Below are positions 11,201-63,750 of a DNA stretch of 64,000 nucleotides, piece by piece. A model generated the notes under the pieces. That model worked only from the letters and a program-made list of their open reading frames with translations. It had not been told where the DNA came from and did no database searches. The stretch's first letter is position 1. Each line of letters opens with the position of its first letter. A program made the translations under genes and the position numbers. The stretch comes from Nereocystis luetkeana (taxonomy: Eukaryota > Sar > Phaeophyceae > Laminariales > Laminariaceae), in NCBI GenBank assembly GCA_031213475.1, contig JARUPZ010000026.1, forward strand, positions 8,053,700 to 8,117,699. The letters run 5' to 3'.

Positions 11201-13578
11201 AGCGATGGGCCCGTTTGTCCGGCGCCAACCATTGCTTAGCGGGGCCAACCATCTGTATCGAAAAAAAGTGGTATACAAGCTGTGAGCTGCGCTATTTTCG
11301 GAGGACCACGTTAAACAGGACCCACGGTACACACAAAAACCTGTATAATATTTAACCATATTTATTTACTAACAACATTTGGTCCTATTCACTGTCGTCC
11401 CTCGTAATAATAGCTGTCTCGGATATCCACAGCCAAGGCGATCCAGAGATCGTCGTTGGGAAATTTCAAGACGATTCAAGAGATCGTCGTTGGGAAATTT
11501 CTGCAGAAAAAGCCCGGCACGAGAAGAAAGAAAACAAGTTTTCCCGATATTTCGTTCCTGTAAAAAATATTAGTATTCTGTGTTCATAAAAAAAGGGCCT
11601 CTCAACTATGAGAAGGTTGTCGGCGAAATATAAATTGGCATTTTTTGGGGGGGGTTTTCGCTTGTATGTATTCTTTTCCGTTTTCTTTTTGTTTTTCCGT
11701 TTCGAGCCGTGTTTTGACAACCCCGAGTATGGACGGCGCCGCTGTGCAAGCCGGGGGGGGCTACACGTCAAGGCTTGGGGTTTTTGCCTAAACCTGAGCC
11801 CCTTGAAGGCAAAATAGATAAAAAAAAATACAGGATATATATACGACGATCTGTTCGAATACGTCGTATTCCGTTTCGCCTCCTGACATTGTGCGGCGCT
11901 TGTTCCAAACATGCATGATATACCGTCCGCAGATCTACGTGCGCGAGGAATTCCAGAGTCCAGCCAGTGAATTCAGACAAGGAAGATGCCATCTATTATA
12001 TCAGACCCGAATACTTGACGATAGTGCACCAACCCTGAGCAGCAGTCGCCTCTTCGAAGGACTCCGCTGACTCCTTACCTGACGTCCCACCAATAAAATC
12101 TTACCTGGTACTCGTTTCATTATTCATGTTTGGGACGTTTTCCCACAGGTGGGCAAAATAATCGCAGTGCGGACGGACGTCCTGCCGTTTGTTCGGGTCC
12201 TCTCCTATTGTGCGCCTCGTGCGTAGTCTGTCTAGTAGCAACTGCACCGTGCCCCCCCCGGTACGTTTCTCCGATCGCCTCGGATTGTCGGGGTTTCGAT
12301 CTCGACTCTTTTAGTGCCGCAGTGTACATGTGCCTAATTCCGAGTCTAACTTCAAGTATTTCGGGGCCATGATGGGAGCACCGCGCTGAATGGGGTTGAA
12401 AAAAAAAGAAAAAAGCAATGCAGGCGTCCTTTTTTCTGAACGCTAAAACAACAAAATCTCCCGGAAATGGTTGAGTGTCTATTTGCGTCAATACTAACCA
12501 TTGCTGTAAATTCTGAGCAAAAGAAACACGTTTCACCCTGATCACCCGCTCACCCCCCCCTCCTCCCCCTCCCCGGAATCACCCCGCCTCTGCCCGCCAA
12601 CCCCACCCCCCGGTGTCATTGTCTCCGGTCCGACTAACAACAGGTGGCCAAGACGATGTCCAGGGGAGACGTACGCAAGGATCCGGACCGGTTGAGTGTT
12701 CGGGTAAGCACAATTTTGTTTTTTACCGGTTACTTTCTGTGATACTAATCTTGAGGCGTATATAAGGAAAGCTTGGTACTATAGTTTGTACTGAAAAGTT
12801 TCTTACATATCCGACCATATTGATGAGTGTTTCGCACACAGCGTAACGCGGCCGCTGCAATCGTGGCTGCTGCTGTTACTATGACGGGGGACCATAGTTA
12901 ATAGGATCAAATATTGCGAGTAAAAATGCTTGAATATATAGGTTTTTATGTATACCACAGGTCCTGTTAACTATGGTCCCTCGTAATAGTAATAGTGATG
13001 GTGGTGGTGGTGGTGGTGGTGGTGGTGGTGCTGCTGATGCTGCTACTGCTGCTGCTACTGCTGCTGCTGTTGCTGCTGCTGAATTCGGCGGTTGTGCTAA
13101 CGCGGCTCATAAGCCTCGCGCAAGCAATGATACACGAGGACGTGGCCTCCGGTGTTATTCCGGACGGACCCCTTAGACATTTCCTGGTACTATTAATAAT
13201 AGCAATTCTTGCTTTGTTTTATTGAAATCATTCCACAATGTCTCTAAATTTAGGAACTTGTTATATTGAATGTTAGTGGGTAAACGGTCCTTATAAATCG
13301 GGACGGAGTGGTATGGCACAAGACGCGAGCAGACGAGGGAAGAAATAGGGCTGAAAATCTTCTCGCATTTAAGATAACAAGAAAAGCGCCAAGGTGGAAG
13401 GAGAGCCCGATTTGTGACCACCCCTGCGTTTTAAGTTGCGACTATTGCGGGAAACTATAGTAAATAGGACCTGCCTTACACACTAAAACCTGGTACCGGG
13501 TGTATGTTTACCTATTTTTACTCGCCATGTTTGGTCCTATTTACTATGCCCCCCCGTAATAAATACCTGGTACGTAAC

Positions 13579-13636
<58 letters not shown>

Positions 13637-16600
13637 TAGCCCTTTTAGGACTGCAGTCCCGTTTTGGGGACAAATTACTTATAATTTGACTGGTTTGTCC
13701 CCAGAACGGGACCGCGGTTCTAAAAGGGTTAGGGTTAGGGTTAGGGGGCGAAGATCACAAATAAATGAGACTTTTCCTTTTTTTCAAGCAATACATACGA
13801 TGCAGCACAGGACACCTACGCACTGATAGCAAGAAACAGGGTAAGCTGATTTACGCTGAACCTTAATTTGTTTTATTTTCGAGAATGAGTGCGCGTTCTA
13901 CACAAACTTCAGAACAACGACTGACGCGTTTCTTAAATATACCTCTTCATCTCAGCCCGCCTTTTTCTTGCTAGGTGTCCTGTACTGGCTGCACCAAGAA
14001 AACCAAGCAAGGCTAGACTAGAGTACGTAGCAATCGTAAGAAAAAAAGCAGGCCGAGATCCAAGGAGAACTACTACTCGTACCTCGTAAAATCCCCGGGA
14101 GCCGTTGCGTACCGAAGGAAGCTACAGCGACAGTAGTAGTTGTAAAATACACCCGTTCCGAATGAAAAAAACCCCAGGCTACCGGTGGTGAGCACTCCTA
14201 TTAATAGTCCTACTTTTTACATTTTTGGTGTCCTGTGTGGTGTACCAGGTACGTACTGCTGTTGTACTATTGATACTACTATTTTTGCGGGGGACCATAG
14301 TAAATAGGACCACATGTTGTTAGTAAAAATAGCGAAATGTACAGGTTTTTGTGTGTACCGTAGGTCCTACCAGGTACCAGGGTATTTAATATGGTCCCCC
14401 GCAATGGTAGCGATGCGTACGTAGTGTTTCGTCTTTTGGTTTTGGGTGAGCGTGGGGGCTGATTCCCATTTTTGGAGTCCACAACAGTGCCGTTTCGGGG
14501 ACAGCCCGTACTCTCGAGCTACAAGCGGTTCGTCCCCCACACGGGACTGTAGTGCTGATAGCTTCAGGCCTGTCCACAGTGTAGGCCCACGATTAGGAAA
14601 CAGTCTATTGATATTAAAAGTTGGCACATAAGGGAGGTAGGCTTGGTGCATGGGTTTCATTTTGTTTCCGAGGTTTTCTTCTTTCGGGAAAGTTATGAGT
14701 GATCAATGTTGAAGATCATGCTCCACACTGTCGGATGGCCAAGAGAAATAATAATAATAATATTGTCAAGAACAAAAAAAGGCTCACCTCTTGGAGAACG
14801 TTGACCCCTTTAGGACCGCAGTCCCGTTTTGGGGACAAACTGCTTGAAATTATAGGGGTTTGTCCCCAAAACGGGACTGCGGTTCTAAAAAAAGGGTTCA
14901 TAATGCTTGGTTGAGAAAATGACTCTCTACGCTAATTCCTATATAATAGCCTATCTATGCTCAAGGTTGTCTGAAGATGGCGCCCAAATATAAATCTCAG
15001 GCTTGCCCAGATTAGGTGTTTCCTGGCGTGGCGGGCCCATGCTGTGTGAGCCCACCAACAAGAAGCAAGCGGTACAGATAGGCGGACTATAGTAAACAGG
15101 ACCCATCATACGTACAAAACCTCATATATTCCAGTATTTTCACTAATACTACGGGGGACCATAGTTAATAGGACCTGTCGTATACTTCAAAAAAAACTAT
15201 GGTACATATTCAACCGTTTACACTACTAACAATATTTGGTCCTATTAACTATGGTCCCCCGTAATAAGCGTATTCGGTCCTGATTACTGCTGCCCCCCCC
15301 CCCCCGTATCTATTCGAGTGGGTGCTCTCGAAAGGTTCTCGGCCGTTACACCTACGAGTAACGGATGGAAGTTTTCGGCCGTTATATCCCTCAATATCTT
15401 CAAAGATCCGCTCATTCCAACTGACTCAAAATGTGTTTCGGTCGATGAAACTGGATGAAGATTTTCTGCCATACCTGGTAATTTTTTTCACTTGTTTGTT
15501 GTCGTCATGCACGTTTTCCAGGGAATTACTCGATATGATAAGAGGTAGACTTGGTGCATGGGTTTCCTTTTGTTTCCGAGGTTTTCTTCTTTCGGGAAAG
15601 TTATGAGTGATCAACGTTGAAGACAATGCTGCACATTGTCGGATGGCAAGAGAAATAATAATAATAAGGGGATTCTCCGAATTTCGGGGAGACGAACAAA
15701 AAAAAGAAAGAACGATCGACTCAAAAAAACTGTGACTGACTCGAGAGATAGATGTTTTTCAGCCGATACAACTGGATATATTTCTATGTTATCGGCTATC
15801 GGCCGTTTATCACATCCTACCAGGGGTGGAAAACTTACAATATCCCACTCGTACACACAGCCATCCATTGACTTGACTCGCGTATTTTTCGGCCAACACA
15901 ATAACAATAATAATAATAATAGTAATAACGGGCTTCTTTTCGCCTGGTATCTGTGTTTGTGTAAACTTCGAATTTGAGACGACTACAAGTTTGTCTCCAA
16001 AAAAGACTATTACGGGGGACCATAGTTAATAGGACCTATGGTACACATAAGAACCTATATATTATAACCATATTTACTATCAATATTTGGTCCTATTAAC
16101 TATGGTCCCCCGTAATAATAGTACTTGAGTTTGGTCATAGAGAAGGACCCCCGCTTAATAATAATAATAATAATAATAATAATACCAGGTATATATTAAC
16201 ACGCGCTATAAACGAGTTAAATATACAACACCTAGTGGCCAATCTTAACGAGGAGTGTTTTTCAGTTTTTTCCAGTATTTTCCCGAAATTTCGGTGTTTC
16301 CCTATAGGAAAAAACCAAGAGGTACCGAACTTACTTCTTGCGGGAAAATACCGAAAAACCCATAAAAATAGCCCTCGTTAAAAACCCTAAAAAATAGCCC
16401 TCGTTAAGATCGACCCTCACAGCTGGCTCATTTTTTTTTTGGGTCGCGATATACATACGAAGAAGGTACACAGCACGCACACACACGTAGTACTTCGTGT
16501 ATATATATACTCGTAGCTGATGGATGGACGTGGTCAGCCATAATGACATTTTAAAACTGAAGGTTCCACTCCCGCAGATACACGAGTACATACCCATACA

Positions 16601-19600
16601 TACATACATGCAGAGCTACGAACGTAATGCACAACTGGACTCATTTTGCGTCAGTTGCATGGAGGGGCCCCAACCGTTGTCAAGAGAACAAACACTCCGA
16701 CAGCACCAGCAGCAGCAGTGCAGCAGCAGCAGCAGCAGCAGCATGGCCTTCAACGTTCATCCCTCAAATACATCCCCGACATATTAATGCCGCTGGTAAT
16801 ACATACATATTTTACGTGTCGTGATCACATATTATACGATCATTTTTTCATTTTTTTTCTTGCCATCCGACAATGTTCATAATGTTGCATGCCATGGTGC
16901 AGTGTTAAACTGCTGCTGCTGCTGTTGTTGCTGCTGATGCCAATGCCGTTAGCGCGCTCCATATGTTAGGAAACGTCAATTTGGTATCCAGGCTCATTTT
17001 TTTTGTGTTTTTCTGACCTTGATCTATTAATAGCTGACTCTGTTGTACCTGGTATAGGATTTAGACTTGATCCCACTGTTGAGCTGTGTTTTGACCAAAA
17101 ATCTGGTACCGATTTTCCCATTCTTCGTGCCGATCTGAGCCTAATTTTCTCAACAGAATGTGCTTTTCACAGCGTTGAACGACAGCATTGCTATCATCGT
17201 CGTATCATACGAGCACTGCACGACCTTGCACATCAGGATTGACAACATTTATTTCCCTTTTAACTGCGCATCCTTGCTACTATTACGGGGGACCATAGTT
17301 AATAGGACCAAATATTGTTGGAAAAAATGGTTAAATATATAGGTTTTTATGTCTACCATAGATAGGTCTTATTAACTATGGTCCCCCGCAATAGTAATAA
17401 CGGTGAAATATATACCAGGTAGGTTTTTATGTATACCATAGGTCCTATTAACCCTTTTAGAACTGCAGTCCCGTTTTGGGGACAATCCAGTCAAACTTTA
17501 AGTAGTTAGTCCCCAAAACGGGACTGCGGTTCTAAAGGGGTTAACTATGGTCCCCCGTAATAATAACAACTGCTGTAGTATCAAATCGAAAAAAATGGCA
17601 ATCCAAAACAAACAGAGAATATTGTAATGATAAGACCACAACTATTAATGGCGACAAAAAAGCGTACGATGACGGCAACCCATGAAATCAAGTCGATTTG
17701 ACCCATAACAACAAGTACTGTACTATGACGGGGGGCCATAGTTAATAGGACCGAATATTGTTAGTAGTAATGGTTAAATATATAGATAGGTTTTTAGGTA
17801 TACCATAGGTCCTGTTAACTATGGTCCCCTGTAATAGTAATACGCACCAATATCGACGAAAAATGTAAGGATCGCTTAGACGTTAATAATATGAAGACCA
17901 CGCGGCTCTCGCATTCCCGCTCATCATAGTGCATACTCGTGCATAGCATTGCTTCGACGCTCGAATTTTTTTTCCAGAGACGACTACTTGCGTACAGCAG
18001 TAGACTATACCAGTAGGATTATTAGACTCTACAGTACTTGATACGCAGCGCTTTTATTCTGGAGAGTTTATCACTTTCTGTTATTATTATTGATAGTATT
18101 TTGTTAGAACAACACTACACCCACTGCTGTCGGATGGCAAGCATAATAATAAGAACACTTGACTCATGAATATTTATTTGCGATTCTACCAGATTTCCTT
18201 AAAAAAATAATGCCATATTTTGGAAATCGAAATATAAGCCACTTTTGCACATATTTTGGCTATCGAAATGTACCACATATATTATTATTCCCCGGTCCGG
18301 CCGGTATTTACTATAATAATAAGTTGGTGGAAGTTCGAGTGATGATGGCGCCCCAAATACCCCGTCACTTCCAGGGACAGGTGTTTCGCTTTTCGTTTTT
18401 CAGAGCATAGAGCGGTACTGCTGCTGTATATACGCATAGATCCATGGAGCAGCAGCAGTAGTAGCCTATCAGCGTGCTGGCGTACCGGTATTAATTTATT
18501 TAGCGCGCGTGTCGCGAGGGAGAGTGCAGACATTCCCAAAGGCGCACCCGACGGAGACCGCGGCGACGACGACTAAGACGACCCCACGACAGCAGCGACA
18601 GCAAAGCAAGGGAAACGGCGTACGCACGCGCGCAGTCGGTGCGCTTTTTTTGGCCGTTTATTTTCTAACTTTGCTGCCCCAATAAACTTATACCATATAT
18701 ATACCTTCTTTTAAGAAAAGGTGCGAGCAATATCTATCTACGATGATGATACTGCTGTACGAGCCCCCAGCATGTCAGAAGCGCTGTAGTCTCGTGCGGA
18801 CGCGTCCACCCATCCGTCTCTCTTCCTATACTTCCTTTTTTTTTTGTGATAAATAAATGTGTGTGTGTTTTTGGGGGGGGATCGCCGATCAAGGTGTCCC
18901 TGGGTGTTGGGTGACCTCTCTCTGTATGTGCAGGAGGAGGATTGCGTGGAAGCTGTATCTGCTTTGTACACTACATAGAGTAAGTAGTATGACAACATCC
19001 TCGAGTGGCATAATGAGTGGCAGCAGTCAATCAGTCAGAGTGTTTGCCCCCTCTTTTTATCAGGGGAAAACATTTAGATGGAAATCATCTCGTTTATAGG
19101 TTAATCCTTTTAGGGCTGCAGCCCCGTTTTGGAGGCAAACTAGTCAAATTCTAGGTAGTTTGTCCCAAAAACGGGACTGCGGTCCTAACAAACAAGGCCA
19201 AGCGATCCCCTTGTTTGTCCGGAGAGAGTCGTGTCAGAAAATAATACTATCAATACCTCGTGTATGTGTACCGCAGCAGCAGTGTAGTAATGTTAATATA
19301 GGGGACCATAGTAAATAGGACCAAATATTGTTAGTAAAAATAGGGGAATATATAGGTCTTTGTCTATACCGTAGGTCATATTTAATTTGGCCCCCCGTAA
19401 TAATAGCGTTGTAGTCGTACTTCTTTGAAGAGTCTTTTTGACACAGACAGGCTTGGAAGTATTTTTGTTGGCCAGATTCTGTTCTCGCAGCAGGTTTGCG
19501 CCTTGTGGCTGGCGACAACGGCGACAAGAAGAGAAGGAGCAACCCCGCGTGCGAGCTGATGATGGCGCACTGCGGCTGCTGCTGCTGCTCCTGCTCCTGC

Positions 19601-22600
19601 TGTTTGTTCGCTTCCGCAACGCATTCGCGCGTTAACCCTGTCGCCCCTGCCCGCGTTGCCGTCTGGCTCTGCCCGACGTTGCTCCGGTCGTCGTGTTTCG
19701 CAATGCAGGAGCTTCGAGATCTGGTTTCAGATAACAAAATGCCTGAGAAAATTATGGAACACCCGCTTGGAGAGGAGTCCCTCGAGATAGACAAGACGGC
19801 GCTCTACGGCATCAAGCGCATCCCCCGGCTTCCCAGCGTCGACGAGGTACACGATAGATAGGCTGAAAGCGCAACGAGCGCAACGTTGTCATATGGCTTA
19901 CAGTAGATTGGGTAGGGTTAGGGTTATTGTCTTTGACCACAGTGGCCCAACGGAAAACAGCTCGCAAGCGGTAAGACCTTCACAAATGGCGTCGATCGGC
20001 AGGACGTTGAGTTCGAACGTTACGTCTACCATGAAAATTGAGCCTGTGATGTGACAAAACGCTTTTGTCCGCGGCGAGGGGGCTTGGGATGTACACTCGT
20101 CCAGACGGCACTCTTAAAACTTGCCGATATTTTAGGGGGAAATATCATACGACTATTACGCGGGGCCATAGTAAACAGCACCTACCTACGGTACACACAA
20201 AAAACTGTACCACCAGGTATATTTACATATTTTTACTAACATTATTTGGTCATATTTACTACTACCGGTATGTTCCTCCTTAACCCCTTTAGAACCGCAG
20301 TCCCGTTTTGGGGACAAAACTACTTGAAGTTTGAATGGTTTGTCCCCAAAACGAGACTGCGGTTCTAAAAGGGTTAATACTGCTGTAATCGCATGGATTT
20401 TTGGTATGATTCGGTGAAACGTTGGTTGTGGGAGTCAGGAGAAGTCTAAGAGTCGTTCAGAAGCAGGGCCTAAGTTGTTAGTTAGTTACTGATATGATTT
20501 CGTCATAATAAAAAAAGTGTTCAGATCCGACAGATAGATAGTATCTTCCACGTCCGAAAGTAAGTGTGGTCGTTGGGGATCCGGAGTCCCTCTTGTATGC
20601 GTGGGATGTAACTGGAACAAGCTCTACCAAACATTATCAGAAAACAAGATAAAAAATAGTCAATGTACACAAATAATTGATTAGCTGTTTCCTATTATTT
20701 TCCGAAATCGGGCAGACGATTTGCTGTGGTGTGTACTAAGGGAACACCCTCCGAAGGCATTTTTTTTGTTTTATTTTTATCGGTTACGAATAAAAAAAAG
20801 GGAACGCTAATTGTACCAGGTACTGGTATGTAACTACTTATTTTCTGAAAATTGGGAAGACGAAACAAATCAAAATGGAAACTTAGTAATTACACCACCT
20901 CGGCCGGAAATGCACGGACCATTTATTATACAGTAATATGACTACCACGTTTGCTAGTATGCCAGGAGATATAGGCTGGTTACCGGATTCCAAAAGGGGC
21001 AGTACATGGGGTTGTCCCGGCCACCGTAATAATGCAGGTCGAGCTGTCAATAGACGTGTGCGGTTACTCCTCACAAGAGTCGGGTGTCTCATCTTGATCA
21101 TTCCCGCTTTCCTGACCCTCAGAGGGTTCTGTGGCACCAGGAACTTTGTACCTGGTGTGTTCTTACCTCTCTTGCCATCCGACAGTGTGCAGCATGATCT
21201 CCAACATCGGTCACTCATAACAACCCCGAGAGAAGAAAACCTCGGAAACAAAAGGAAACCCATGCACGAAGTCTACCTCCCTCCCTTCTGTGCCAACGTT
21301 CGGCTTGTCTATTGGTTTAATTGGTTGATTTGGCGCGGCCCACCAGAAGCACGCCTCCTCGACAATAGAGGGGAGACGGGATACTGTCATGAATGCCATG
21401 ACTCATATGCTCCGAGTGGTGTACCTGGTTCAGTACCGTGGGGGTTGCGGTTTACCGGTGGTACGCCTTAAGATAGGGGGTGACCTTCTCGTAACGAAAA
21501 CCGAGCGTCTATGTATATATTATTATCATACTTTTTATCCAGGCCGGTCGCCACGGTGGTTCAAGTGGTTAACCTCTAATTCTACTTGTTTGAGTCCTGG
21601 GTTCGAGCCCCAGGTGGGTCGGACTTTGACTTTATTTGCAAAAATAAACATAAAAAGGATTCAATTGTTGAGAGCGCCTTGCAGCGTGGGTAGGCACAAT
21701 TCGATGCGAGCCGACGAGGGAAGAAAAGGCTGAAATCTTCTCGCGATAAAAATGAAGGCACGTACCGTAGCGGGAAGGGGGGAGAAGAGCCTGCTATGTG
21801 ACCCCGGATCTGAGGTACGAGTTGGAAGGAGAGAGAGAAGAAGATGTGCGAAGATAATGAATGGGATGAGAAAAAAACACACACACACATAAAAATCCGA
21901 CAAGAGCCCAATGTGCAGCATGAGCTTCAACGTTATTCACTCAAAACAATAAAAAATATATACGTAATTAACGGGGATTTTTTTTTTCAGAGTGGTTCCT
22001 GGTACGTTCGTAGCTCCTGGTATTACGGGGGGTCATAGTTAACAGGACCTATGGTATACATAAAACCTATATATTTAACACTTTTTACTAACAATATTTG
22101 GTCCTGTTAACTATGGACCCCCGTAATAGTGTTTTTTGTTAAAAGATAGAGGCGCGTCTTTATTTCTCTGGGGCCGTTGGCTCGATCATGATATATGAGC
22201 TCTACGCCTCACCCAAGCACCGATTTTTAGGAAAAACGGAAAGTCGCAAAACCTGACGGATAATCCCCTGGCCTACTGTAGGTATAGAAAAACAATGATA
22301 ATATTTGCTGGGGGGGGGGGGGGGGGGATGGCATTATTCAGACCATTTTGGGTCAAGGGGCCCCGAAATTCAGAAATATTTTAGCCACGAAAGCGCTCCC
22401 TCTGTTTTGTCGTAGCACCCGTCTTAAACTCTTGAGTAGATTTCGTTGGTCTGTCATTTCCTGCATCCGGTGCTTCTCTTACGCCGATACCAGGTGTAAT
22501 ACTAAAATGCGTACAGTAAGTAGTTCTTAAACCGCGTTCAAAAAAAAATATTTTTCCCGGAGACCTGGAGTCTGGAATACTCTGGAATATGGAGTCTCGC

Positions 22601-24773
22601 CGGAATCTCGCCGCCGGCATGAAGGGAGGCCGAGATTATTAAAAGCGGCCGATTTTTTTTTTTTCGCCAGTTCGACCCCCGCGCAACGGAGGTCTAACGC
22701 TTCTTGCACCAGGAAGAAGTTTCGTGGCGAGGGGGGGGGGGGGAGTTTACGTTTATTACGCTGCTTTCAAATTTAACATCGCGCTTCCAGATTTGAGATT
22801 CGAGATTCGAGATTCCGTGCTCCGAAGCGGGCTCAGCGTTTCTCGGGACCGCTGTTGCGGCAATCAATCTGGCGTCACTGTTTAAGGGCCACTGCTCGCT
22901 GTGGCGGACTGCGTACAACCGCCGTCTCAATAGATGGCTCCTTTTTGGATGAACCCTCGGTACGCGGGCACTACAACAGTACTTTCGTTTTTTTGGTGAA
23001 GGGCGTGGTGGATGTCGATGGAGGGTACCTCCCCACCGCAAAATCTTTCGACGTCATGGTTGAAGGTTACTGCCGCGTAGGATACGAAGCGTAACCAAAC
23101 CCTTATATCCCTGTCAATACTGACCCTTGTTGCCCCTTTTGTCACTGTCTCTTAAGACCGCAGTCCCGTTTCGGGGGCAAACTACTTGAAACTTGAGTGG
23201 TTTGTCCCCAGAACGGGACTGGCTGCAGTTCTACCAGAGTCCTGAAAGGGTTAACCTTACAACCTTACCTATACACAGAGGAACTAGACGTGCGGGTTTT
23301 TCTTCTTTTTTTTTTGTGGGTAGGGGGGGCTAGCTACCGGCAGCTGCAGTTGCCTTCGTACCTACCGGCAGTGGCGAATTGAAAAGTACCTGGTACGTGC
23401 TAAGTAAGTGCTAAGCAAGTGCTGAGCAAGTGCTATTACGGGGGACCATAGTAAATAGGACCAAATATTGTTGGTAAAAATAGCGAAATATATAGGTTTT
23501 AAAGTGTACCGTAGGTCCTATTTAATATGATCCCCCGAAATAGCACTTGCTCAGCACTTGCTTAGCACTTACTTAGCACGTGCCTGGTACTTTTCAATTC
23601 GCCAATGCCGGTAGGTACAAAGGCAACTGCAGCTGCCGGTAGGTAGACCCCCCTACCCACAAAAAAAAAACAAAAAAACCCGCACGTTTAGTTCCTCTGT
23701 GTATTCTTACGGGGGGGCCATAGTAAATAGGACCATATACTGTCAGTAAAAATAGCGAAATATATATATATATATATATATTGTGTGTACCGTAGGTCCT
23801 ATTTAGTATGGTCCCTCGTAATAGTAGAAGCCCCACCAATCGTCACTGTTTTGTCTTGTGCTTTGTTTGGCATTGCTGCATGTGAAGCAAGTCGACGAGG
23901 GAAGGGACGGCTCACGTATCCTCGCGATAAAAGTGCAAGGCACGCGAAGCGTAGTGCGGACGGGGGAGGAGAGCCTTCTGTCTAATATCGGGTCTGAATG
24001 ACGATTATTAATATTATAGGAGGATCTGACTTACGATTATTTACGGGGGGCTATAGTAAATAGAACCCACGGTACACACAAGAAACTCTATATTTCCTTG
24101 TTTTCACTAACAGTATTCGGTCCTATTTACTATGGTCCCCCGTAATAGTTACTACTGCGGGGGGCCATAGTAAGTAAAACCCACGGTACGGACAAAAACC
24201 TACCAGGTACATTTTTACCTACTTTTACTAACAACATTTGGTCCTATTTACTGTGCTCCCCCGTATTAGGAGGGAGAGAGAAAAAGAAGGGGCAAGACTA
24301 TTACGGGGGGCCATAGTTAACAGGACCAAATATTGTTAGTAAAATGGTTAAACATATAGGTTTTTATGTGTACCATAGGTCCCGTTAACTATGGCCCCCC
24401 GTGATAGTAAATGGGATAAACAAAAACAAGAAAAGAACAAGCTAGTTCCGGAGGTACCGTTCGTTCGATATCAGCACGAAAACTTTATGTGCGAAGGAAG
24501 TAGAAAATCAGACATCGCTCCCACCCACTCTTACGTAAACGGTTTCGTTTTGGTTGGGCGGGGGGGGGGGCGGGGGGGGGGGGGGGGTACTCGATAGGAG
24601 AGATGTACTCGATGTCATGCATGGACGTAGCCGTATTACCGTACGTAGACCCTCGCGGAGCACGTCGGGTTTTCACCGACCAGGCAGACACTGCTTGCTT
24701 ACACCAAGCGCGGAGCGCCGTAAGGTGTCCGGCGAGTCGCATGAAGGCTGAGCTGCATCCTATTAAGAACCGA

Positions 24774-27800: not shown

Positions 27801-30800
27801 TGTTCCCCGTCCCTGCTGTAATTTTATATCGGAGGGGGTGTACGCACGGGTTGGCGTGGTCACTCCTCCTGCAGTAGTTCTCTTGCTTTGCGGAATACAC
27901 CAGGTACTACCAGGCTTCTAGTTGTGGTCTCGGGCATGGAAATCGTACCGGAGGGGTTGGTTACCCCCCCCCCCCCCCCCCCCCCCCCACCCACCCGGTG
28001 GTGTTTGTTGGTGCGTATCATCGAGATCGCGTTGATCACCTGGACCCGAGCCTGCCGTCGGGCAGAACGGACCCAACCCAGGAAACCAGTCCTAGACCAA
28101 GAGGCTAGATCAAATGCACCAGAACTATATACGCACCGGAGTATCGTGATATATGCTGTGGGAGTCGAGGATCTGTTCGAGGTGGCGCAAGCTTGTCAGG
28201 AGGCGTTCTACGATAGAGGTTCCCCCTAAACTTTCTGAGGCTCCTCGCCTAAGGAGTTCCACACCTCACCCGATAACTGACTTCAGAAAAAAGCAGACTG
28301 TATCCCGATGAATAATCCCATGCCCCACGTTTGCGAAAAAGGCATCTTTTTTAGCAAGGTTGGCATTCCGACGATTTCGGGTTGAGAAGCTCCGTCACTC
28401 AGAAAATATTTACGGGGGACCATAGTTAACAGGACCTATGGTTATGCCGGTCGCCCCGGTGGTTCAAGTGGTTAACCTCGAATTCTACTTGTTTGAGTCC
28501 TGGGTTCGAGCCCCAGGTGGGTCGGACTTTAACTTTATTTGAAAAAATAAAAAAGGATTCAATTGTTGAGAGCGCCTTGCAGCGTGGGTAGGCATAATTC
28601 GATGCGAGTCGACGAGGGAAGAAAAGGCTGAAATCTTCTCGCGATAAAAATTGAAGGCACGTACCGTAGCGGGAAGGGGGGAGAAGAGCCTGCTATGCGA
28701 CCCCGGATCTGAGTTACGAGTTGGAAGGAGAGAGAGAAGAAGATGTGCGAAGATAATGAATGGGATGAGAAAAAAATAAACTAAAAAAATAAAAATGGTA
28801 CACATAAAAACCTATATGTTTAACCATTTTTACTAACAATATTTGGTCCTGTTGACTATGGCCCCCCGTAATACCTCGAGCGTAGAATGCGTCTCAGTCT
28901 TGAAGTGCCGGCCGGTCGTAGTACTGTATGTCACAGCTGAGGCCTTCTGATGACACGCATTTTCCCTCCACATACCGCTGTTATCCCTTCTATTACGGGG
29001 GACCATAGTTAACAGCACCAAATATTGTTAGTAAAAATAGGCAAACATATAGGTTTTTATGTATACCATAGGTTCCATTAACTGTGGCCCCCCGTAATAC
29101 TGCAGGACTGTGCTTCCGTTAGTGGGGACGAACCGCTTACAACTTGACAGGTTATTGTCCCATGAACGGGACTGCAGGGTTGGCCTCCGCTGAAACCCCT
29201 CCCTGATGGGCAAGTATGTCTCGCTTACGGCGGCAACTTCAACTGCTGTGCGTGCCACTCCGGGCTATAAGGACCGCTTGGTACTAATATTATGTGTAAA
29301 CGGTCCTTATATTTACGATCAGAGTGGTCATGTTTTTTTTTGTTGATTTGCGGAGAGTTATTTTGCTTCGGATTTCCGGTTTCAGATCTCGGGGGTGTCA
29401 AGATCTGCCGCTTGACCCACAGCCCGAACGATGGCCCTGGATTTTTTTTTTGAGTAGTCGCAAAAACGAAGAGAGTCTCGCCTGGCTTGAAAATTTTCAA
29501 GAAGCACAAACTGTTCGCCGCTGTGTCGCTATCTAACAGGGGTGGAAGCCTGAGGATGTCAAGTTCTTCCGACACGCCTACGTGAAGTGCATCCTGGCGA
29601 CCGACCTCGCCCTGTCCCTCGAGTACATCTCCAAGTTCCAGAGCTTGACGAACAACATGTTGGCGAGAGAAGCCTCCCAGAGCAGCACCTCTAGCACTGC
29701 CACCAGCAGCGTCGGCATGGGCAGCCCTAGGGGCTCTACCAGCGGTAAGCGCGCTTTTTCTTCCCAAACTAAACTGCTGAACTTAACCAACGTATATACA
29801 TATATATATAGCCGACTTATACTTCACGTACACTCTATTACGAGGGACCATATTTGTTAGGACCTACGATACAGACAAACACCTACCAGGTATATATTTC
29901 GCTATTTTCAGTAACAATATTTTGTCTTATTTACTATGGTCCCCCGTAACAGTACTCCAACCCCAACCGGTTTGCCTCCCCAAAACAAATGCTTGCAGGT
30001 CTGAAGGCGATAGCACCTTTTAGCACCGCAGTCCCGATTGCGGGGACAAAACACTCAAATTCCGAGCAGTTTGTCCCCAAAACGGGACTGCGGTTCGAAA
30101 AAGGGCTAAGGCGTAGGCCGGTCACGACTAGAACTACCTAAGTACCCCGAGCAATACGTGCTGAATGGATGAGCCCTTGACCTTAAGGAGTGCAGTTTTA
30201 TTCGGGGGGAGGCGTATTGCTCAGAATTTGAGCGGTGTGTCTCCAAAACGGGACTGCAGTTTTTTGCCCTGAAGGGGTGATGTGGGTGGAAAACGAGCAG
30301 GGACTGGTGCTTCGCCTAAGGGAGTGTACCTACTTGTTGCTTCCCTCAACCATTTTCACCATTGGCCACGCACCCTTTTCGAGACGGGGCAGCGCCGTTC
30401 CAGCTCACAATAACAGAGCACGCCTCCAACAGTTGGGCGCTCACTACGTTGTTTCCTCATAAGTATACGAAGTATAACATTGAAGCGTTTTTGTTAATCT
30501 CGCCCCCTTTCCCATCTCGCCGGCCCGTGGCCACCGTCTATCTCCTGGCTATAGGGCAGCGATCGTTTTCCCGCCACTGTAGCATCTAGTGTGCCACCGA
30601 CACTCCTCTCTTGTCGCATCAACCGTCTATTATTGTTTTGTCATCTCCGGTAGGATGCCACGATTATTCAACTCTACCGCGCTTAGGCAGCTCGGGCGGA
30701 GGGGGCTCTTGTCACCTCTCTCAAAAAGCCGAAAGTTGAAAATGCGTTGGTGGTGCTTATATGCCGTACCCTGCGAAGAAGCCAGAATTCAGACCAACAA

Positions 30801-33800
30801 AAAAAAAAATAGGGTACGGTTCGAAGGAACGTCGCTTTTTGTCAGCCCGGGGGTGAGCCGCACGTACGTACCTATACGGCGCAGAGCGAAAAAAGGGCTA
30901 AGCGCTCGTTTTGCCGAGAACGGTGAGGGTTTCTTAAGTCAACATGCGTTATCTTCTCGTGTATGTACGTACATGTGCAAGCGTATTACGGGGGACCACA
31001 ATTGATAGGACCTACGGTACACACAAAAACCTACCAGGTATATATTGCCCTATTTTACTAACATTAGTTGGTCCTATTTACTCTCGCCCCCCGCAATAGT
31101 CCCAAAAGGGCTATAGACTGAGAACGGCAAGGAAGGAAGGCTCTCTCGCTCTCGGCCGGAATATTTAATTTCCCGAAAAAAACACCATGTTCGGTATTTA
31201 TTGACGATCGACAACCATTTTGTTTCCCGTGCTGATGGCGTCACGCTCTGTTCCCGAATATAAGCACCTTTAGTGTGTCAATACAGAACAAAACCACACT
31301 TTATGTTTGGGGGCAGTAAGTCGCGCGGGTCCCCAAAGGGGCCTAGTACTTAGTCACCCCCCCCCCCTCTATACCGTTCGAGTACGTATCCTTGGCCCAG
31401 CACGCGCCTTCATGGGTGTCTTTGCAGCGGGGATATTTTACGGTGTAATACCCTGGGCTATCCGGGTATCGCACCTGGTAGTTTTCAGAGTCCTTCACGG
31501 GTCATGGCCCCAACGCGCGGGTCCGGCCAGGGAGTTTTCGACAGCCCGCGGGTTAGGTAGGGACGGGTCAGGTCAGGACGGGTCGGATCGCGTCGGGTCG
31601 GGTCGGGTCGGATCAGCAGAATTTACAAATCCTCATGGATCGGGTCCGGTCACCGTTACCTGACCTGACCCCACCAAATCCGTGACGCGACCCAACCCCA
31701 CCGGATCCGACCCGACCCGACCCGACCCGACCCGACCCGACCCGACCCGACCCGACCCGACCCGACCCGACCCGACCCGACCCGACCCGACCCGACCCGA
31801 CCCGACCCGACCCGACCCGACCCGACCCGACCCGACCCGACCCGACCCCACCGGATCCGACCCGACCCGACCCGACCCGACCCGACCCGACCCGACCCGA
31901 CCCGACCCGACCCGACCCGACCCGACCCGACCCGACCCGACCCGACCCGACCCGACCCGACCCGACCCGACCCGACCCGACCCGACCCGACCCGACCCGA
32001 CCCGACCCGACCCCACCCGACCCGACCCGACCCGACCCGACCTGATCCGCGAGGTTTTGACACGGCTCGTCAACAGTCCTGATTGTTCTAGGCATACTCG
32101 GGTAGGTATAGGTACCCGGGTACCTCCTGAGGTAGGTACCCGGGTGCCCCCAGAGGTAGATACCCGGGTACACCCAGAGGTAAATACCAGGGTACTCCCA
32201 GAGGCAGGTGCCCGAGTGCCCCCAGCGGCAGATATATCACTGATATACTCTGAACCATCCGAGTACCGAATGTCGTTTGTTTCGGGTATACCCGAGTAGG
32301 TACCCGGGTACCTCTAGAGCATGTACTCGGTCCTTATTACGGATACACGCACCCTTGAAGCTCCCCATTAACGGATTATATACTTGACTTGTTCGGATGC
32401 AGGGAATGGGGGGAGCTTAGGAGGGGCAGCGAAAGCGAACGGGAAAGAAAAGGGAGTCGGGAAGGTGGGGGGGGTCGGGCTGGAGAGCATCCAGAGCCAG
32501 ACGCTGCTGCTGCAGATGGTGCTTAAGGTGAGAAAACGTATATCACGAGTATCTATATGTACTACGAAACCGGGCTGTGTTGGACGCGTCAGGCCTCGTT
32601 TGGCCTTGAGGCACCAAGTACTCGACCTTAGTGTCGGGAGGGGCGATCAGTCAAGCGGTCAAACGAGGTGACCGGACACATTTCAAGTCTATCGAACTAG
32701 TTTTAGCGTAGGATACGGTCAGCCAAGCGGCCAGACCGAGGTCGCCTGCGCGGCAAGTTTGAACGATACTATTCATCATGTAAGAGGGTGGTCAGTCAAG
32801 CGATCAAATCGTGGTCTATTAATAGTAGCACATTAATGTGCAGTTTATAGCGTACGGGGCGGTCAGTCGAGCGGTCAAACCGCGGTCTCAACAAGCATGT
32901 GAAATAATCCTAGGTTTAGTGTAGAGGCGCGGTCAGTCAAGCGGTCAAACCGCGGTCTACTAGGATATTAACGTACTATTCACACTGTAGGGAGCGGTCA
33001 GTCCAGCGGTCAAACCGCGGTCTACTATTAACAGTAGTATACCAATACACTATTTACAGTGCAGGGAACGGGCAGTCGAGTGACCAAACGGCGGTCCTTC
33101 GAAGATGGGTGGGGCGAACCTCCCAACCAAAACTCGGTCAAAGCTCCCGTTCTCATTTTCCACGGAGGCTGCTTCTCGAACGTCGGGTTTGTTCTGCGTT
33201 TTCTTCAACCACGCTCTGCTCTACTAGAAGACCGCGAGTTGGCTGGTCGACGGGGCGCCCTCCCGCACGAGCGAGCGAGGGCACCTCAGAGCTCCTGCGC
33301 TCGATAAAACACGATGCTGCTGTAGTAGGAGATCCCGATTCTAGGCGTTGACAGTAGCGTATGAGGGGGTCGTGATTGGAGCTGGACATTTGCCGGCGCA
33401 GGCAAAAACATGTGTACATACAGTACGCACCGTGTTACAAAATGTGTGTGCTCTCAACCCTTTTAGGACTGTTAAGGGCTATTGCGGGAGACCATGGTAA
33501 ATAGGGGACCTACGGTACACACAAAACCCTGTATATATTACCTATTTTTACTAGCACTATTTGGTCCTATTTAATACGTTCCCCCGTAGTGCTGCAGTCC
33601 CGTACCGGGAACAAAACCGCTCATAATTTGAGTGTTTTGTCCCCAGAAGGGGGCTGCAGTCCTAGGAGGATCAAGACATGTGCATGCTAACGGCAGCGGT
33701 ACCGTGTGCCTGGTGTTCGTTTCTGATGACCCCAACGTTTGGTTTCCGTTCGTGTGTAGGTGGCTGATGTCGCCCACCCGTGCAAGCCGTGGGACATTCA

Positions 33801-39179: not shown

Positions 39180-40650
39180 AGTCGGGGCGAGAGCCGCACC
39201 GCTGAGTACGGTAGGTATAGTGGAAGGTTGCTTGAGTGACGGAGCTCCCCCAACTAGAGAATGGCTCAGTACCTTCCGAGTCCCAATGATGTAGCGTGCT
39301 ACACTGTGGTCACTCTGACCGACAACATAGTGCCCGTTGGGACTCTAACCCGAAGATAAAAAAGCGGGTATTGTTACAATACCGGCCAGAGGGGTTGAAC
39401 GCGTTCGCTCTACGGGGTACCTACCACGAAAAGAAAACATTCAAAATCCCTTTTCTTTGGTGTGAGGTACGAGCGTAGAGCTCCTCGGATGACGAAACCA
39501 CAGAAGACAATAGTTGCGGTACTGCGCCGCTGGTACCACCGCTGCTACTGCAGCATGTGTCGCGAGAGAGGTGGGGTGGTGGGGTGGGCGAGGCCGTGAG
39601 TATTTGTTTCCCCTTCTTTTGTCGGACAGTCGGGTTCACGTCTTGGTTGCGTCTCACTCTGCAGCGGGGATGGCTCGCCTGATGCTAAATACGTCACGTT
39701 TCGTGCACCCATGAAGGAAAGGCCGAAAGCCACGCGTACACGTATTTTGGTATAGTACGATGTTTTTACTCAGGGGGTTTCAACCGGGGAGGGAGGCGGG
39801 GCATGTCGGGGCATACATGCCGACAGGGTATGGAGTTTTAGGCGATAGCGCGGGGGGGGACCCGGGGGGGGGGGGGGGGTATACTACTTTGTACACAGTA
39901 CTGGCATACTTCGAAGTATCTACCTGGTATATATATGTGCAGCAGCTCATAGTGGCAAAAAAATGCTAGGACCTTCCCGCTACACTGCTGTACGACGATG
40001 ACGATGCAACATTTCGCATCGTGTTGCGTGTTACCAAAGTGTTATTTTTTTATTTTTCTATTTTATTTTTATTTTTGGTTCTCGTTTCTCTCCCCCTCTG
40101 AGGGTCGGGGACGTAAGTCAAGCGTCCCCGCTTCCGAATTTGTCGTCGCCGTCTCCCACGGCACACTAATCAATTAAACACAGTCATCACGACCGGGTAT
40201 GATATTGTTGTAGATCGCCTCGAATGTCGGGGTCAGGATTTCGCGGCTGCTTCGACGGGCGCCGTGCACTGAAAAGTAGCATCTCGATCTCGCCGCTAAT
40301 TGGCTCGAGTGTCGGCGCGAGCTGACCGTATCGACGACACGCGCACGACTCCGAGGAAGCGGTGCGTGTGGTCTCTGTTAACCGCACACCGTCTATGCCC
40401 TACCGGGCACCCGGTAGGTGTTAGCCTGTGGGCTCTCTACTACGTACGTACCTGGTACCCGTACAACGGAATGTCTTCATGTGTCGGATAAAGTATAACA
40501 CGCGGGAATACTGCTGTTATACTTCGTACACACGCAATCAAATGGTGCAAATCAAAGGACACCGCGTAAATGAAGTAAACGCGATACACGAAACAGCAAA
40601 CGCCACTCGCGCTATCACTGTGACACCGATTATCAGCGCTGATGTCTCAC
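39180..40650. other. Intergenic sequence, nothing recognised
   Basis: Downstream of the PDE gene. It has a poly-G run (39868-39879) and two TACCTGGTA motifs (about 39921 and 40449). No supported exon. Confidence 0.45.
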
Positions 40651-43097: not shown

Positions 43098-43735
43098 CTT
43101 GCAGGTTGGGTTGGCGTCGGTTGGCAACGACGCCGTAAAACACGCCTCTCACTGCATGAACTATTACGGGGGGCCATAGTAAATAGGACCAAATATTGTT
43201 AGTAAAAGAGGATAATATCTACCGGTAGCTTTTTGTCTGTACCGTAGGTCCTGTTTACTATTGTCCCCCGTGACATACAACCAGGGGAAGGTTTTTTTCG
43301 GTCACCAAGGCTGGCGGTCGAGTTAGATCATCCGCTCGGGCTGGAGAACCCTCACTCCGCACAAGGGGAATTATCGTATCACGTAGTGTGTACCAGGTAT
43401 ATGGCAAGACACCCACGAGGCAGATATCATACCGTAGAGTACCCAATGCTGTCTCTGGAAGTGGCCACACCACAGAAAACGAATGATATCATTTCAACCT
43501 GCCACCCATAGCTAGTCCGCCTCACAAGCGGTTCGCAGGATGCAACTCATCCTTCACACGACTCGCCCAACACCTCCCATTTCGCTTCGCGCCTGGTGCA
43601 GGCAAGCACTGCCTGCCTGGTCGGTGAAAGCCCGACACGTGCTCCTCCTTCCCGGCATTGTAGGGATGCGAGGGTCTATGGTCGCACGACTACGACGACG
43701 ATGATTTTTATCGAGTACACCCCCCCCTCTTCCCC
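43098..43735 (-). repeat. Rep-C1, near full-length copy with a MITE-A inside
   Basis: GGTTGGGTTGGCGTCGGTTG to TTTTATCGAGTACACCCCC. MITE-A copy 34 at 43164-43273 interrupts the CTAGACAACC site. Confidence 0.8.
43164..43273. mobile_element. MITE-A copy 34, nested in Rep-C1
   Basis: TTACGGGGGGCC to TTGTCCCCCGTGA; TACCGGTA in the centre where the consensus has TA. Confidence 0.88.
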
Positions 43736-45260: not shown

Positions 45261-45870
45261 CAGAACGGGACACCTACGAAAGAAAAGAGTGTCAAGAAAG
45301 TCAGATTTCAGCGAAAAAAGAAATTCGCGGGACGTTTAACCTGAAATTGCTGGACAACAAGAAAGTAGGGAACCTTTACACTGGAGCTCGTGAAAAAATG
45401 CACTGTTTCTTAAATAAGAAGGCCAGCCTGAGTCCGAATTCGATTTCACTTTTCTTACTATTAATACTATGTACGTTAGGTGGTTGTAGAACTCGAGTAT
45501 TAGCTAAGTCAGGCTTCAGAAATACCTGGTAGACGATTATTTATGTGGATAAAACAGGTAATTTGAAGGCGAGAAGATTATATCGCGAAAATGAAACGTC
45601 TCGGCGCAACAACGCCATATACGCGTGTTTGCACACTGCAATTGCTCCTTCTGGACGAGCTTCAAGTATAGATCTGGGGGGAAATAAATGAAACCAGAAA
45701 AATCACCGGACTCTCCGATAAGCAAAAACAAATATACCTGGTATGTTAATATTTTAACGAAAACGCAAAGGATTTCCGAATGGTAGTACACAAAAAACGG
45801 GCAACGCGAGTATCATACCTACGTGCCAGGTACACACATCGTCCATACTACCGACTAAGTACCGCCATCC
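45261..45870. other. Intergenic sequence, nothing recognised
   Basis: It contains two TACCTGGTA motifs (45523, about 45734). No exon with good borders. Confidence 0.45.
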
Positions 45871-55109: not shown

Positions 55110-55220
55110 TTACGGGGGACCATAGTTATTAGGACCAAATATTGCTAGTAAAAATGGTTAAACATATACCTGGTAGGTTTTACGTGTTCCATAGGTCCTA
55201 TTAACTATGGCCCCCTGTAA
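55110..55220. mobile_element. MITE-A copy 38
   Basis: TTACGGGGGACC to GGCCCCCTGTAA; TACCTGGTA at 55167-55175 in place of TA. Confidence 0.9.
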
Positions 55221-58461: not shown

Positions 58462-58683
58462 TATTACAATTTTGTTGTAAAAACACGGGTAGGTACGGAC
58501 ATGTTATTTATTGAGCGCAAAAACATTGGCGGGGGAAAAAAGCGGCGCTCCCCTTACAATATTATTTTGTCGGAACTAGTTCTTTGGCAGCAGCAATAAG
58601 AGCGCTCACCCAAGAAAACGTACGTACATGCTTCCACCAATAAGCACGCTTTTATTGCCCTATTTTGTCTACAGTAGTGGCTA

Positions 58684-58788
58684 TTACGGGGGGCCATAGT
58701 TAACAGGACCAAATATTGTTAGTAAAAATGGTTAAACATATAGGTTTTTATGTGTACCATAGGTCCTGTTAACTATGGCCCCCCGTAA
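58684..58788. mobile_element. MITE-A copy 41
   Basis: TTACGGGGGGCC to GGCCCCCCGTAA; almost perfect TIRs. Confidence 0.93.
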
Positions 58789-58898
58789 TAGTAGGATACC
58801 TCGAAGGAAACCCCCTGTGCACAGTCAAAGCGGTATTTATATATCACAAAAGGAGTAGGCGTTATCGTGCAGGGGACAGGACAACACAGCTCGCATAC

Positions 58899-59071: not shown

Positions 59072-59166
59072 CTGCCGTGCATCAAGGTACGAGCTATTAT
59101 TTTAAGAATATTTAGTCCTCAACTTGGGTAACATACCAGGTACAATACCACTCTGGATTCAACACT

Positions 59167-59282
59167 ATTTCGGGGGACCATAGTAAATGGGACCTACGCT
59201 AGACACAAAAACCTACCAGGGTATCTATTTACCTATTTTTTTACGAACACTATTGGGTCCCAATTACTATGGTCCCCCGTAA
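59167..59282. mobile_element. MITE-A copy 42
   Basis: TTTCGGGGGACC to GGTCCCCCGTAA; TACCAGGGTA at 59214-59223, a one-base-longer variant. Confidence 0.88.
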
Positions 59283-60114: not shown

Positions 60115-60460
60115 ATAGAAACGGGAGATATCGAAACATCGGAACATCGGACCTTCGAATACACACATATGCAAGACATTAATAAGTTTCCACCTGCGAG
60201 GCACGCGATATCGGCATATCGAGATACCGTAATACCGAATTCATACAAAATTCGAGATATTAATGAGTTTCCACCTACGAAGCTCGTGATTTCGGAATAT
60301 CGAATACCATAATATCGAATACCTGGTACACGATATAGGGATATCGAAAATATCGAATATCGGAAAATCGAGAGATCGAATTCATCCTGCTGTCATTCAA
60401 GACGTTAAGTAATTTCCACCTACGAGGCATAATCATATCGGAATATCGAAATGCTGATGA
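60115..60460. repeat. ATATCGAA degenerate repeat
   Basis: Frequent ATATCGAA, ATATCGGAA and AATACCG at irregular 8-20-bp spacing; a TACCTGGTA is embedded (about 60320). Two units of about 80 bp (AATAAGTTTCCACCTGCGAG type) are also repeated. Confidence 0.8.
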
Positions 60461-61914: not shown

Positions 61915-62345
61915 ATAATATATATATATATATATATATATATGCCGGTGTTCAATACCAGGTATCGAATAACAAATATCGGATATCAAATTGCGAATAT
62001 CGAAAATTTGATACCGAATATCGAATACCCTGGTATCGAACTTTGATTACATCCAATGTCGAATATCGAATATCGCATGTCGAATATCGAATATCGCATG
62101 TCGCGTACCAGGTATCGCACATCGCTCACAAGGTACACGAAAGTCGAATATATGAACATCGACTTTCGAAGATACGAAAAGCGACCATTGAACACATCGC
62201 ACACCAGGTATATCAAAATCGAGTATATCAATATCGAATATCGAACGTACGAACAGAGAGAAGATGTGGCACACCGGGTAAAAGCGTATCGGATATATGA
62301 ATATTATCGAATATCGAATACACGAGTAGCGATCATCGAACACTG
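61915..62345. repeat. (TA)n and ATATCGAA degenerate repeat, second array
   Basis: A TA run (61918-61943), then ATATCGAATATCGCATGTCG-like units, with TACCAGGTA embedded at about 61967 and 62104. Same sequence type as 60115-60460. Confidence 0.85.
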
Positions 62346-62735: not shown

Positions 62736-62760
62736 GGCGTGGGTGAAATTGGTTCATTAA

Positions 62761-62863: not shown

Positions 62864-62869
62864 TTAACT

Positions 62870-63750
62870 GCTTGAATGTGACAACAGCGGGGCAATGTGC
62901 CGGAAGCGGGACAATACCCTCGCCTCGGTGCAACCGAGAAGGTTATAAGGGTAAGCGTGGATGGAATTAAGTCATCAAACAGTTGAGCTCGTGGTGTAGA
63001 TTATTCAATTCTGCCAACACCAACAGAGGAACACGATTCATATAGAGCGCTTGAAAATCAGTCCAACATTGGAACGAACACTCGTTCCCCCTTTCGGGGG
63101 TATCTTGTCATCGTCGATGCGTTATACCAGGGCCGTACCAGGCAGTATGTCGTGTAGTACCAGAGCACGCAGCACAGTATACGATACGCAGTACCAGATG
63201 CATGCATAAATCCTCTCGACCCGTGTATATGCCAACGTGCTGAGTACAGACACCCAACATGTGTACATCAAGTTATGTGTTGGGAAGTTTTCGTGCTTTT
63301 TTCGAACACGTCTCTTCGAACGAGCACTTTTCGGCCAAACAAACGCCAAGCGCCCCGACACGCGAGACCCTGCCGGAGACAACGGTCGAGGTCTCGGCGC
63401 GATCCGTGCGCTCTGGAGCGCGTGGCGGGTGCTCGATGTTTTTTTTTCTCCCTGGCGGGAGGGGATAAGACGATTTCCCTGGTTTCAGTGCGAGAGGCCT
63501 TACCTTGTACCAGGTACATACGTACCGGGAAATTTGTTGTCTGTATTTTGCCTCATGGACACAGACTAGACATACACTGTAGGACCAGGGAGACAACAGG
63601 CAACATTCACAGAGCGCAACGTTCCAACGGTGCCGCCCTTACGCCGTGCGTGCGAGACATACCCATTCGGGCTGTACTGCTGTGGCTGGGTTGTTTTTAT
63701 CGGGGCCTACGGTCCGCAATCCACCATCTACCTCTCAAGCTGCTGCTCTA
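62870..63750. other. Intergenic or intronic sequence, nothing firm seen
   Basis: Overlapping frames of 70-158 codons on both strands, none with a recognisable domain. Confidence 0.4.

Follow-up and report, generated by a model that had tools for sequence, protein, structure and literature searches.

The stretch of DNA considered here, referred to throughout as the window, comprises 64,000 nucleotides of the forward strand of the brown alga Nereocystis luetkeana (GenBank assembly GCA_031213475.1, contig JARUPZ010000026.1, positions 8,053,700 to 8,117,699). Two features of the window are of primary concern, namely, a near-palindromic nine-letter word, TACC(A/T)GGTA (written TACCWGGTA, where W is A or T), and MITE-A, a family of miniature inverted-repeat transposable elements (MITEs), some copies of which carry the word. 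MITE-A is a high-copy element of 109 bp, bounded by TA on either side, whose inverted ends are long (TTACGGGGG(A/G)CCATAGTTAA..); its copies include 7434-7542, 16008-16117, 58355-58463, 58682-58790, 59593-59705, and many more. TACCWGGTA occurs 32 times in the window, 16 times as TACCAGGTA and 16 times as TACCTGGTA, against an expectation of 0.6–1.6 under Markov models of order 1–4; the original prediction, made by eye, had put it at about 30 against about 0.5, and its 13 example coordinates lie 0–6 bases from real sites. The individual occurrences, termed scars in keeping with the interpretation developed below, are collected in Table 1.

A genome-wide count against background, as had been suggested with that prediction, confirms the observation on a far larger scale than first stated. 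The assembly (465,085,209 bases, 1,987 contigs) contains 182,395 copies of TACCWGGTA versus 1,744 of the reversed pattern used as a control, an excess of approximately 105-fold; at a density of about one per 2.5 kb, the word is among the commonest nine-letter words outside simple repeats. In a survey sample of twenty 10-kb stretches picked at round coordinates (L009-L028), 83 copies were counted, ranging from 0 to 22 per stretch with a variance about five times the mean. Together with the window, these stretches (261.5 kb without N) hold 115 copies, and the single-base neighbours of TACCAGGTA occur 0–16 times each. One stretch, L021 (C11:3000001-3010000), bears 22 scars in 10 kb, several of them tandem and one triple; the triple tandem scar had no match in IMG/VR, from which records near the present genome may be excluded. 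Another word, TACGAGTA (complement TACTCGTA), is apparently frequent too, with 39 occurrences in the 200 kb of L009-L028, and may represent the four-base footprint left by a different element.

The word proves to be an addition to pre-existing sequence when repeats are compared with one another. The window and loci L002-L036 were aligned all against all, with two overlapping loci dropped, giving 304,594 bases; L002-L008 had been obtained by similarity to a motif-bearing stretch of the window, and the motif had served to obtain L029-L036; rates from this set are therefore not unbiased. Among 100 seven-base insertion events in the pairwise alignments, 22 carry the word CCWGGTA and the next words reach 5, with the proviso that one insertion may count at neighbouring positions. 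Occupied copies read TA-CCWGG-TA where sister copies read TA, in copies of MITE-A as well as in repeats unrelated to it from L009, L015, L017, and L020; that is, CCWGG plus a duplicated TA is inserted where the sister copies have a plain TA, and the earlier claim that seven bases were added to copies otherwise having only TA is confirmed by alignment.

MITE-A provides the most detailed record of these insertions. A 401-base query yielded 5,337 first-look candidates genome-wide, 40 of which were scored, and the 109-bp profile yielded 183 matches with both strands counted; of the 101 copies left when each locus was counted on one strand only, 85 survived filtering by length and score. Inserts lie at model position 24 (which becomes 86 when read from the opposite strand) and in the TATA of positions 58-61, where both TAs are used and both W states are present. 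The canonical scar occupies this TATA hot spot in ten rows, of which the six CCTGG rows come from the window (five) and L028 (one), and the four CCAGG rows from L002, L005, L007, and L008 (L007 and L008 share one sequence). Hot-spot variants include CGGAG, CCCTGG, CCACCAGG, and CGTACCAGG, with CGGAG at the TATA of the copy at 33971. The MITE-A copies originally listed as bearing the motif do contain it, the coordinates then given being approximately those of the copy starts rather than of the motif; the motif itself lies at 24201, 29884, 31032, 35776, 55167, and 17413 in one MITE TATA, and at 33993 and 14368 in another TA. Because several positions, both W states, and differing variants are involved, the MITE-A insertions represent several separate events. 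A check for a single clade having inherited the motif came out negative, given these features and the presence of the same insert in unrelated arrays; five hot-spot copies in the window share one W state, however, and part of them may trace to one event in a common lineage.

The flanking sequence carries a signature of its own. Complete flanks were available for 126 sites, and 102 were kept after the removal of similar flanks and tandem neighbours. A purine before the left TA together with a pyrimidine after the right TA is found in 69 of the 102, versus 36% of all TAs; moreover, A is favoured at -3, -5, and -6, and A or T at -7, with the mirror image on the opposite side. The χ2 values (3 degrees of freedom) are 48 at ±1, 48 at ±6, 80 at ±7, 8.0 at ±8, and at most 4.7 from ±9 to ±12, and the left and right halves each show the pattern on their own. 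This symmetric preference around TA, extending from ±1 to about ±7, is read as the mark of a transposase with a dyad-symmetric target preference. When TA-x-TA words (1–12 bases, at least 4 sites) are ranked by flank score, CCWGG comes top (z 16.9), a rank that is partly circular since the matrix was built from the same sites, followed by TATA runs and GGACC; the other frequent words of this form (TATA runs, TAC triplets, and the GGACC of MITE-A) have the appearance of simple repeats or of MITE-A sequence. Tandem scars exactly 7 bp apart make up 9 of 96 neighbouring pairs, whereas 0.9 would be expected at random TAs and 2.9 at target-weighted TAs. The seven-base insertions and the dyad-symmetric flanks thus point to insertion by a transposase and not to a regulatory palindrome.

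On this evidence, TACCWGGTA is probably a footprint of excision, left by a cut-and-paste DNA transposon that targets TA, behaves in a Tc1/mariner-like way, and cuts with a five-base stagger. The same interpretation had been offered originally, and it is supported as the best available by the genome-wide excess, the multiple MITE-A insertions, and the symmetric target consensus. In the proposed mechanism, an unseen element with inverted ends 5'-CCAGG would have landed at TA, duplicating it; upon excision, the second-strand cuts of the transposase would fall five bases within the element at either end, and the two five-base overhangs (CCAGG against CCAGG) would anneal with one central A:A mismatch, to be repaired to A or T. 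Slipped annealing of the overhangs would give CCAGGG. Since the scar keeps two TAs in a favourable context, re-insertion could follow and produce tandem scars. The proposed mode of working resembles Tc1/mariner excision, and the predicted donor may belong to that group; the five-base stagger would follow from the products, its nearest rival being a three-base stagger with a one-base overlap.

The repair products bear on the form of the ends. In the 304,594 bases, the canonical scar was counted 142 times, the six-base class (CCWGG with an added G or C, both directions) 14 times, CCGG 19 times (versus about 4.6 expected at equal base use), CCATGG twice, and a double fill-in not at all, leaving the five-base form the commonest of the counted products. 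Genome-wide, TACCAGGGTA occurs 11,422 times on both strands versus 409 for its control, and in the local loci it outnumbers TACCTGGGTA 13 to 1, with L058 and L059 left out since they were fetched by pattern. At the MITE hot spot, 41 CCAGGG stand against 1 CCTGGG; these may have been copied from one another, and some consist of CCAG followed by the MITE's own GG, for example at window 59646. Of the length variants originally ascribed to imprecise repair, CCAGGG is thereby upheld and CCGG is enriched locally, while CGGAG appeared in a single MITE copy. As a separate observation, TACCAGGGTA recurs every 528 bp, seven times, at C1:1305185-1308353, in a tandem array bearing the six-base scar. The double fill-in product TACCWGGCCWGGTA is found at 27 sites genome-wide versus 3 for the control; ten of these are TACCAGGCCTGGTA, the form expected for CCAGG ends, and one is TACCTGGCCAGGTA, that expected for CCTGG ends. 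W is informative only where the product is not a palindrome, and the six-base and double fill-in products were therefore used to read the ends: the excess of CCAGGG over CCTGGG and the ratio of 10 to 1 among double fill-ins suggest element ends that read CCAGG.

The scars appear to differ in age. The single-base neighbours of TACCWGGTA number 102 (50 distinct words), where 284 random palindromes average about 43, beside 115 intact copies, so that roughly one third of the detectable scars may carry one change. Because single-base neighbours are in excess, the scars would have been laid down over time, with a spread of ages. If neutral, scars would become fixed as often as they originate; a few dozen donor copies active over a very long time would then be enough, and a low number of donors is no contradiction.

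Several findings nevertheless weigh against the excision footprint. Six of the ten canonical hot-spot rows are CCTGG, and all four CCAGG rows derive from loci fetched with a TACCAGGTA-bearing query; outside the query-fetched loci, CCAGG at the hot spot occurs only in the partial copy at 17413. The same W letter is present in 7 of the 9 tandem pairs, and slippage may add to re-insertion. At 16 of the 27 double fill-in sites, both halves carry the same W letter, contrary to the simple model, which does not predict the four TACCCCAGGTA sites either. Above all, no donor element was recognised. CCWGG end pairs with an inverted similarity of at least 9/14 numbered 36 in 304 kb, and among the 25 examined none was judged an element. 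The hot-spot word of the MITE reads TACCWGG without a T behind it at 51 places in the whole assembly; 12 were fetched (all ten non-CCAGGG and 2 of 41 CCAGGG), and 11 of the 12 hold no insert, the MITE copies continuing within a few bases (L052 is the same as L056). L054, one of the fetched places, lies outside any MITE. Among transposase domains, DDE_3 gave no match in the genome, with three control genomes giving matches. DDE_1 gave 28 matches, and no CCWGG inverted ends were found at 10 of these 28 loci within about 1.5 kb on each side, a span in which larger elements would be missed; L047, a 6-kb stretch around one of five equal DDE_1 copies, contains no TACCWGG on either strand. Transposase_1 had no match, but the control genomes were also silent, so that this search is uninformative. 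The CCWGG-ended element of the original prediction was not recognised in these scans, and the donor stays a predicted one.

A number of candidates were inspected and set aside. A second paired-end scan returned at least about 10 pairs, the best of those listed being L021 3377-8718 and L008 218-1867; the listed pairs have a scar or MITE at their ends and just 5–7 of 7 further bases matching, and by a rough estimate without a statistical test, such CCWGG pairs are chance-like. The paired ends among those listed are scars, MITE copies, or the foldback at 23272-23703, whose arms extend past the motif in either direction. Scar-ended pairs with further similarity, judged chance-like, include L021 3377-8718, 3187-8677, and 5959-8718, the tandem scars at L021 1724, L011 331-3210, and window 60320-62114 and 60320-63516. 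In L008 218-1867 (the same sequence as L007), read whole, similarity fades past about 13 bases. An extension TTTATATTAT shared behind TACCTGG by L023 and L035/L036 is compatible with a decayed TACCTGGTATATATTAT, and the long inverted repeat of L046 is a duplicated stretch without transposon ends. L038 holds the longest DDE_1 open frame, of 415 amino acids, with a Tc5-type domain below cut-off; it is related to Ectocarpus proteins, and its relatives in the present genome are 40–53% identical and shorter or interrupted. Scars stand 297 bp before and 115 bp after this frame, the latter in an apparent MITE-A, and they share no inverted repeat beyond CCAGGTA. Five DDE_1 matches of the same score, extent, and stop counts (C2:7920664, C809, C872, C1099, and C1378) are possibly recent copies.

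Other origins of the motif were weighed against the excision footprint. The seven bases might have been added without an excising transposon, through aberrant end-joining at TA breaks or abortive insertion of transposon ends; this would agree with the absence of a recognised donor in the scans, and abortive events also fit a transposase-type target preference, but the fixed five-base word, the TA duplication, and the slipped by-products match excision, we know of no such transposon-free addition of seven bases, and the explanation is regarded as improbable. Alternatively, elements might be kept in another stage or nucleus and cut from the sequenced tissue, in the manner of ciliate internal eliminated sequences, which would account for the very many sites, the lack of a recognised occupied site, and the single dominant product. 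The scars are, however, decayed and of mixed age, and some are tandem; no programmed elimination is known to us in brown algae, and this origin is extremely unlikely. If a few repeats had gained the motif once and then been amplified, its count would reflect repeat copy number; the MITE-A hot spot indeed supplies several of the 32 window sites, five with one W state, and the tandem array on C1 multiplies the six-base form, but 102 of 126 sites survive flank de-duplication, which renders amplification highly unlikely as the source.

A conserved palindromic protein-binding site under genome-wide selection would explain a near-perfect palindrome with symmetric flanks. The motif consists, however, of seven bases added at TA in some repeat copies only and at several positions, it reaches 182,395 copies in 465 Mb, and its excess of one-base variants suggests decay; the empty sister sites already refute such a site to a large extent, and it is barely credible. 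The tandem copies, mostly with the same W, could be taken for slippage of a seven-base microsatellite, CCWGGTA, yet 87 of the 96 neighbour pairs lie more than 7 bp apart and the sites fall at preferred TAs; slippage is already refuted for single sites and has a negligible chance of being the general cause. Closest in kind to the preferred reading is a TA transposon whose cuts are less widely staggered, for instance by three bases, with ends CCA and a one-base overlap leaving CC, A/T, and GG. TACC(A/T)GGTA can indeed be written as CCA+GG or CC+TGG, footprints of animal elements are given as at most 3 nucleotides (PMC9632168), and in plant cases the 1–4 bases are counted per end, so that five or more between the TAs are possible (PMC1925063). 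A shorter stagger nonetheless predicts CCATGG as the next product, whereas 2 CCATGG were observed versus 13 CCAGGG, and CCAGGG cannot form without bases four and five of one end; it is therefore considered quite unlikely.

Beyond the scars, three other features of the window were recorded. The foldback repeat at about 23272-23703 matches a microRNA precursor family of Rfam below threshold, which probably reflects the hairpin shape only. A hairpin at 56722-56807, on both strands, has a sub-threshold match to MIR1120 and is perhaps a MITE, and a CGACC-type tandem array at 31613-32313 is open in several frames.

Table 1. Scars and related features in the window (positions counted from its first letter)
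Position	Strand	Feature
2227..2235	.	TACCTGGTA scar
8274..8302		two scars 20 bp apart in TA-rich sequence: 8274 TACCTGGTA, 8294 TACCAGGTA
8770..8778	.	TACCTGGTA scar
12102..12110	.	TACCTGGTA scar
13564..13572	.	TACCTGGTA scar adjoining MITE-A end
14243..14251	.	TACCAGGTA scar
14368..14384		TACCAGGTACCAGGGTA, scars in tandem (five-base type first, six-base type second), within MITE-A copy 14285-14405
15472..15480	.	TACCTGGTA scar
16183..16191	.	TACCAGGTA scar within AAT repeat
17046..17054	.	TACCTGGTA scar
17413..17421	.	TACCAGGTA scar, MITE-A hot spot, partial MITE match
20814..20822	.	TACCAGGTA scar
23387..23395		TACCTGGTA scar within one arm of foldback repeat (~23272-23703)
24201..24209	.	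scar, MITE-A hot spot
29884..29892	.	scar, MITE-A hot spot; empty sister sites observed
31032..31040	.	scar, MITE-A hot spot
33910..33918	.	TACCTGGTA scar
33993..34001	.	scar at other MITE-A TA (model position 24)
34037..34045		variant scar TACGGAGTA, hot spot of MITE-A copy also scarred at 33993
35399..35407	.	TACCAGGTA scar
35776..35784	.	scar, MITE-A hot spot
39921..39929	.	TACCTGGTA scar
40449..40457	.	TACCTGGTA scar
43391..43399	.	TACCAGGTA scar; nine-base insertion when aligned to L030
45523..45531	.	TACCTGGTA scar
45735..45743	.	TACCTGGTA scar
55167..55175	.	scar, MITE-A hot spot; L024 has empty site
58682..58790	+	MITE-A copy (109 bp) whose hot spot is empty, with terminal TAs and inverted ends TTACGGGGG..; example of the substrate against which insertions are read
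59134..59142	.	TACCAGGTA scar
59214..59223	.	six-base by-product TACCAGGGTA within MITE-A copy
60320..60328	.	TACCTGGTA scar adjoining TCGATA-type repeats
61956..61964	.	TACCAGGTA scar adjoining TCGAATA-type repeats
62106..62114	.	TACCAGGTA scar within TCGAATA-type repeats
63508..63516	.	TACCAGGTA scar

The scars can be compared with several known systems. In Sleeping Beauty-type excision, the central W of the footprint arises from a mismatch, and animal Tc1/mariner elements have a palindromic AT-rich target preference; the present scars resemble these in the TA target, the TA duplication, a footprint presumably derived from element ends, the central W, and the palindromic target preference, and differ in having five bases and in being known without a linked donor or transposase. 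Ciliate internal eliminated sequences are TA-bounded and very numerous, and their excision is developmental, commonly leaving a single TA; TA-bounded sites in very large number are found here as well, whereas the scars retain five extra bases and show decay. The wider group of pogo/Tigger-type elements uses TA duplications; the brown-algal members (DDE_1), to which the 28 matches and L038 with its Ectocarpus relatives belong, show no recognised CCWGG inverted ends at the ten loci read, unlike the predicted donor.

Brown algae are stramenopiles. In the present genome, a Copia reverse-transcriptase frame in L012 has proteins of Ectocarpus and Sphacelaria as its nearest named relatives among the 120 listed, the very nearest being without a name, in keeping with a brown-algal origin. 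PlantMar elements are described in plants and stramenopiles (PMC7325037), and no PlantMar transposase was identified in the present genome. For Ectocarpus, 17 families of Mariner-Tc1 elements, close to 12,000 copies in all, are reported, in a paper whose main text does not contain the word 'footprint' (PMC12477816). The staggered cuts of mariner-type elements lie within the element ends (PMC4561436), Tc1/mariner footprints are given as 2–4 bp (PMC7913693), and Osmar5 and Stowaway leave 1–4 bp pieces beside TA duplications, with longer totals possible (PMC1925063). The plant Mariner/Stowaway elements (Osmar5, Ppmar2) thus share with the present scars the duplicated TA and the retained end pieces (PMC4561436, PMC1925063); their products are diverse, with 1–4 bases per end, whereas here one five-base word dominates. 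Five bases stand between the TAs in the commonest scar and six in a minority, from which the length per end is deduced, versus the 2–4 bp or 1–4 bases per end of these accounts; since the latter are counted per end, a total of five is less unusual. Literature searches on the motif letters, footprints, and brown-alga transposons yielded no such motif or five-base TA footprint among the matches listed.

A more far-reaching reading, which is unlikely, holds that a long-stagger lineage left scars as its most abundant trace, with about 180,000 intact marks and scarcely any resident copies, its excision being almost obligate and perhaps scheduled by the life cycle. If this were true, the scars would form a neutral, datable record of jumps and, with seven-base insertions numbering in the hundreds of thousands, a mutational force. 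Scars alone, without the element itself, can reveal a transposon's target choice, its repair products, and its history; the footprint work cited dealt with a handful at a time, and a genome-wide set is available here. If confirmed, the five-base stagger would exceed the 1–4 bases per end of the published cases cited. Should the donor be rare or gone, the scar count would measure mutation by a cut-and-paste element that leaves no copies, to which ordinary repeat annotation is blind.

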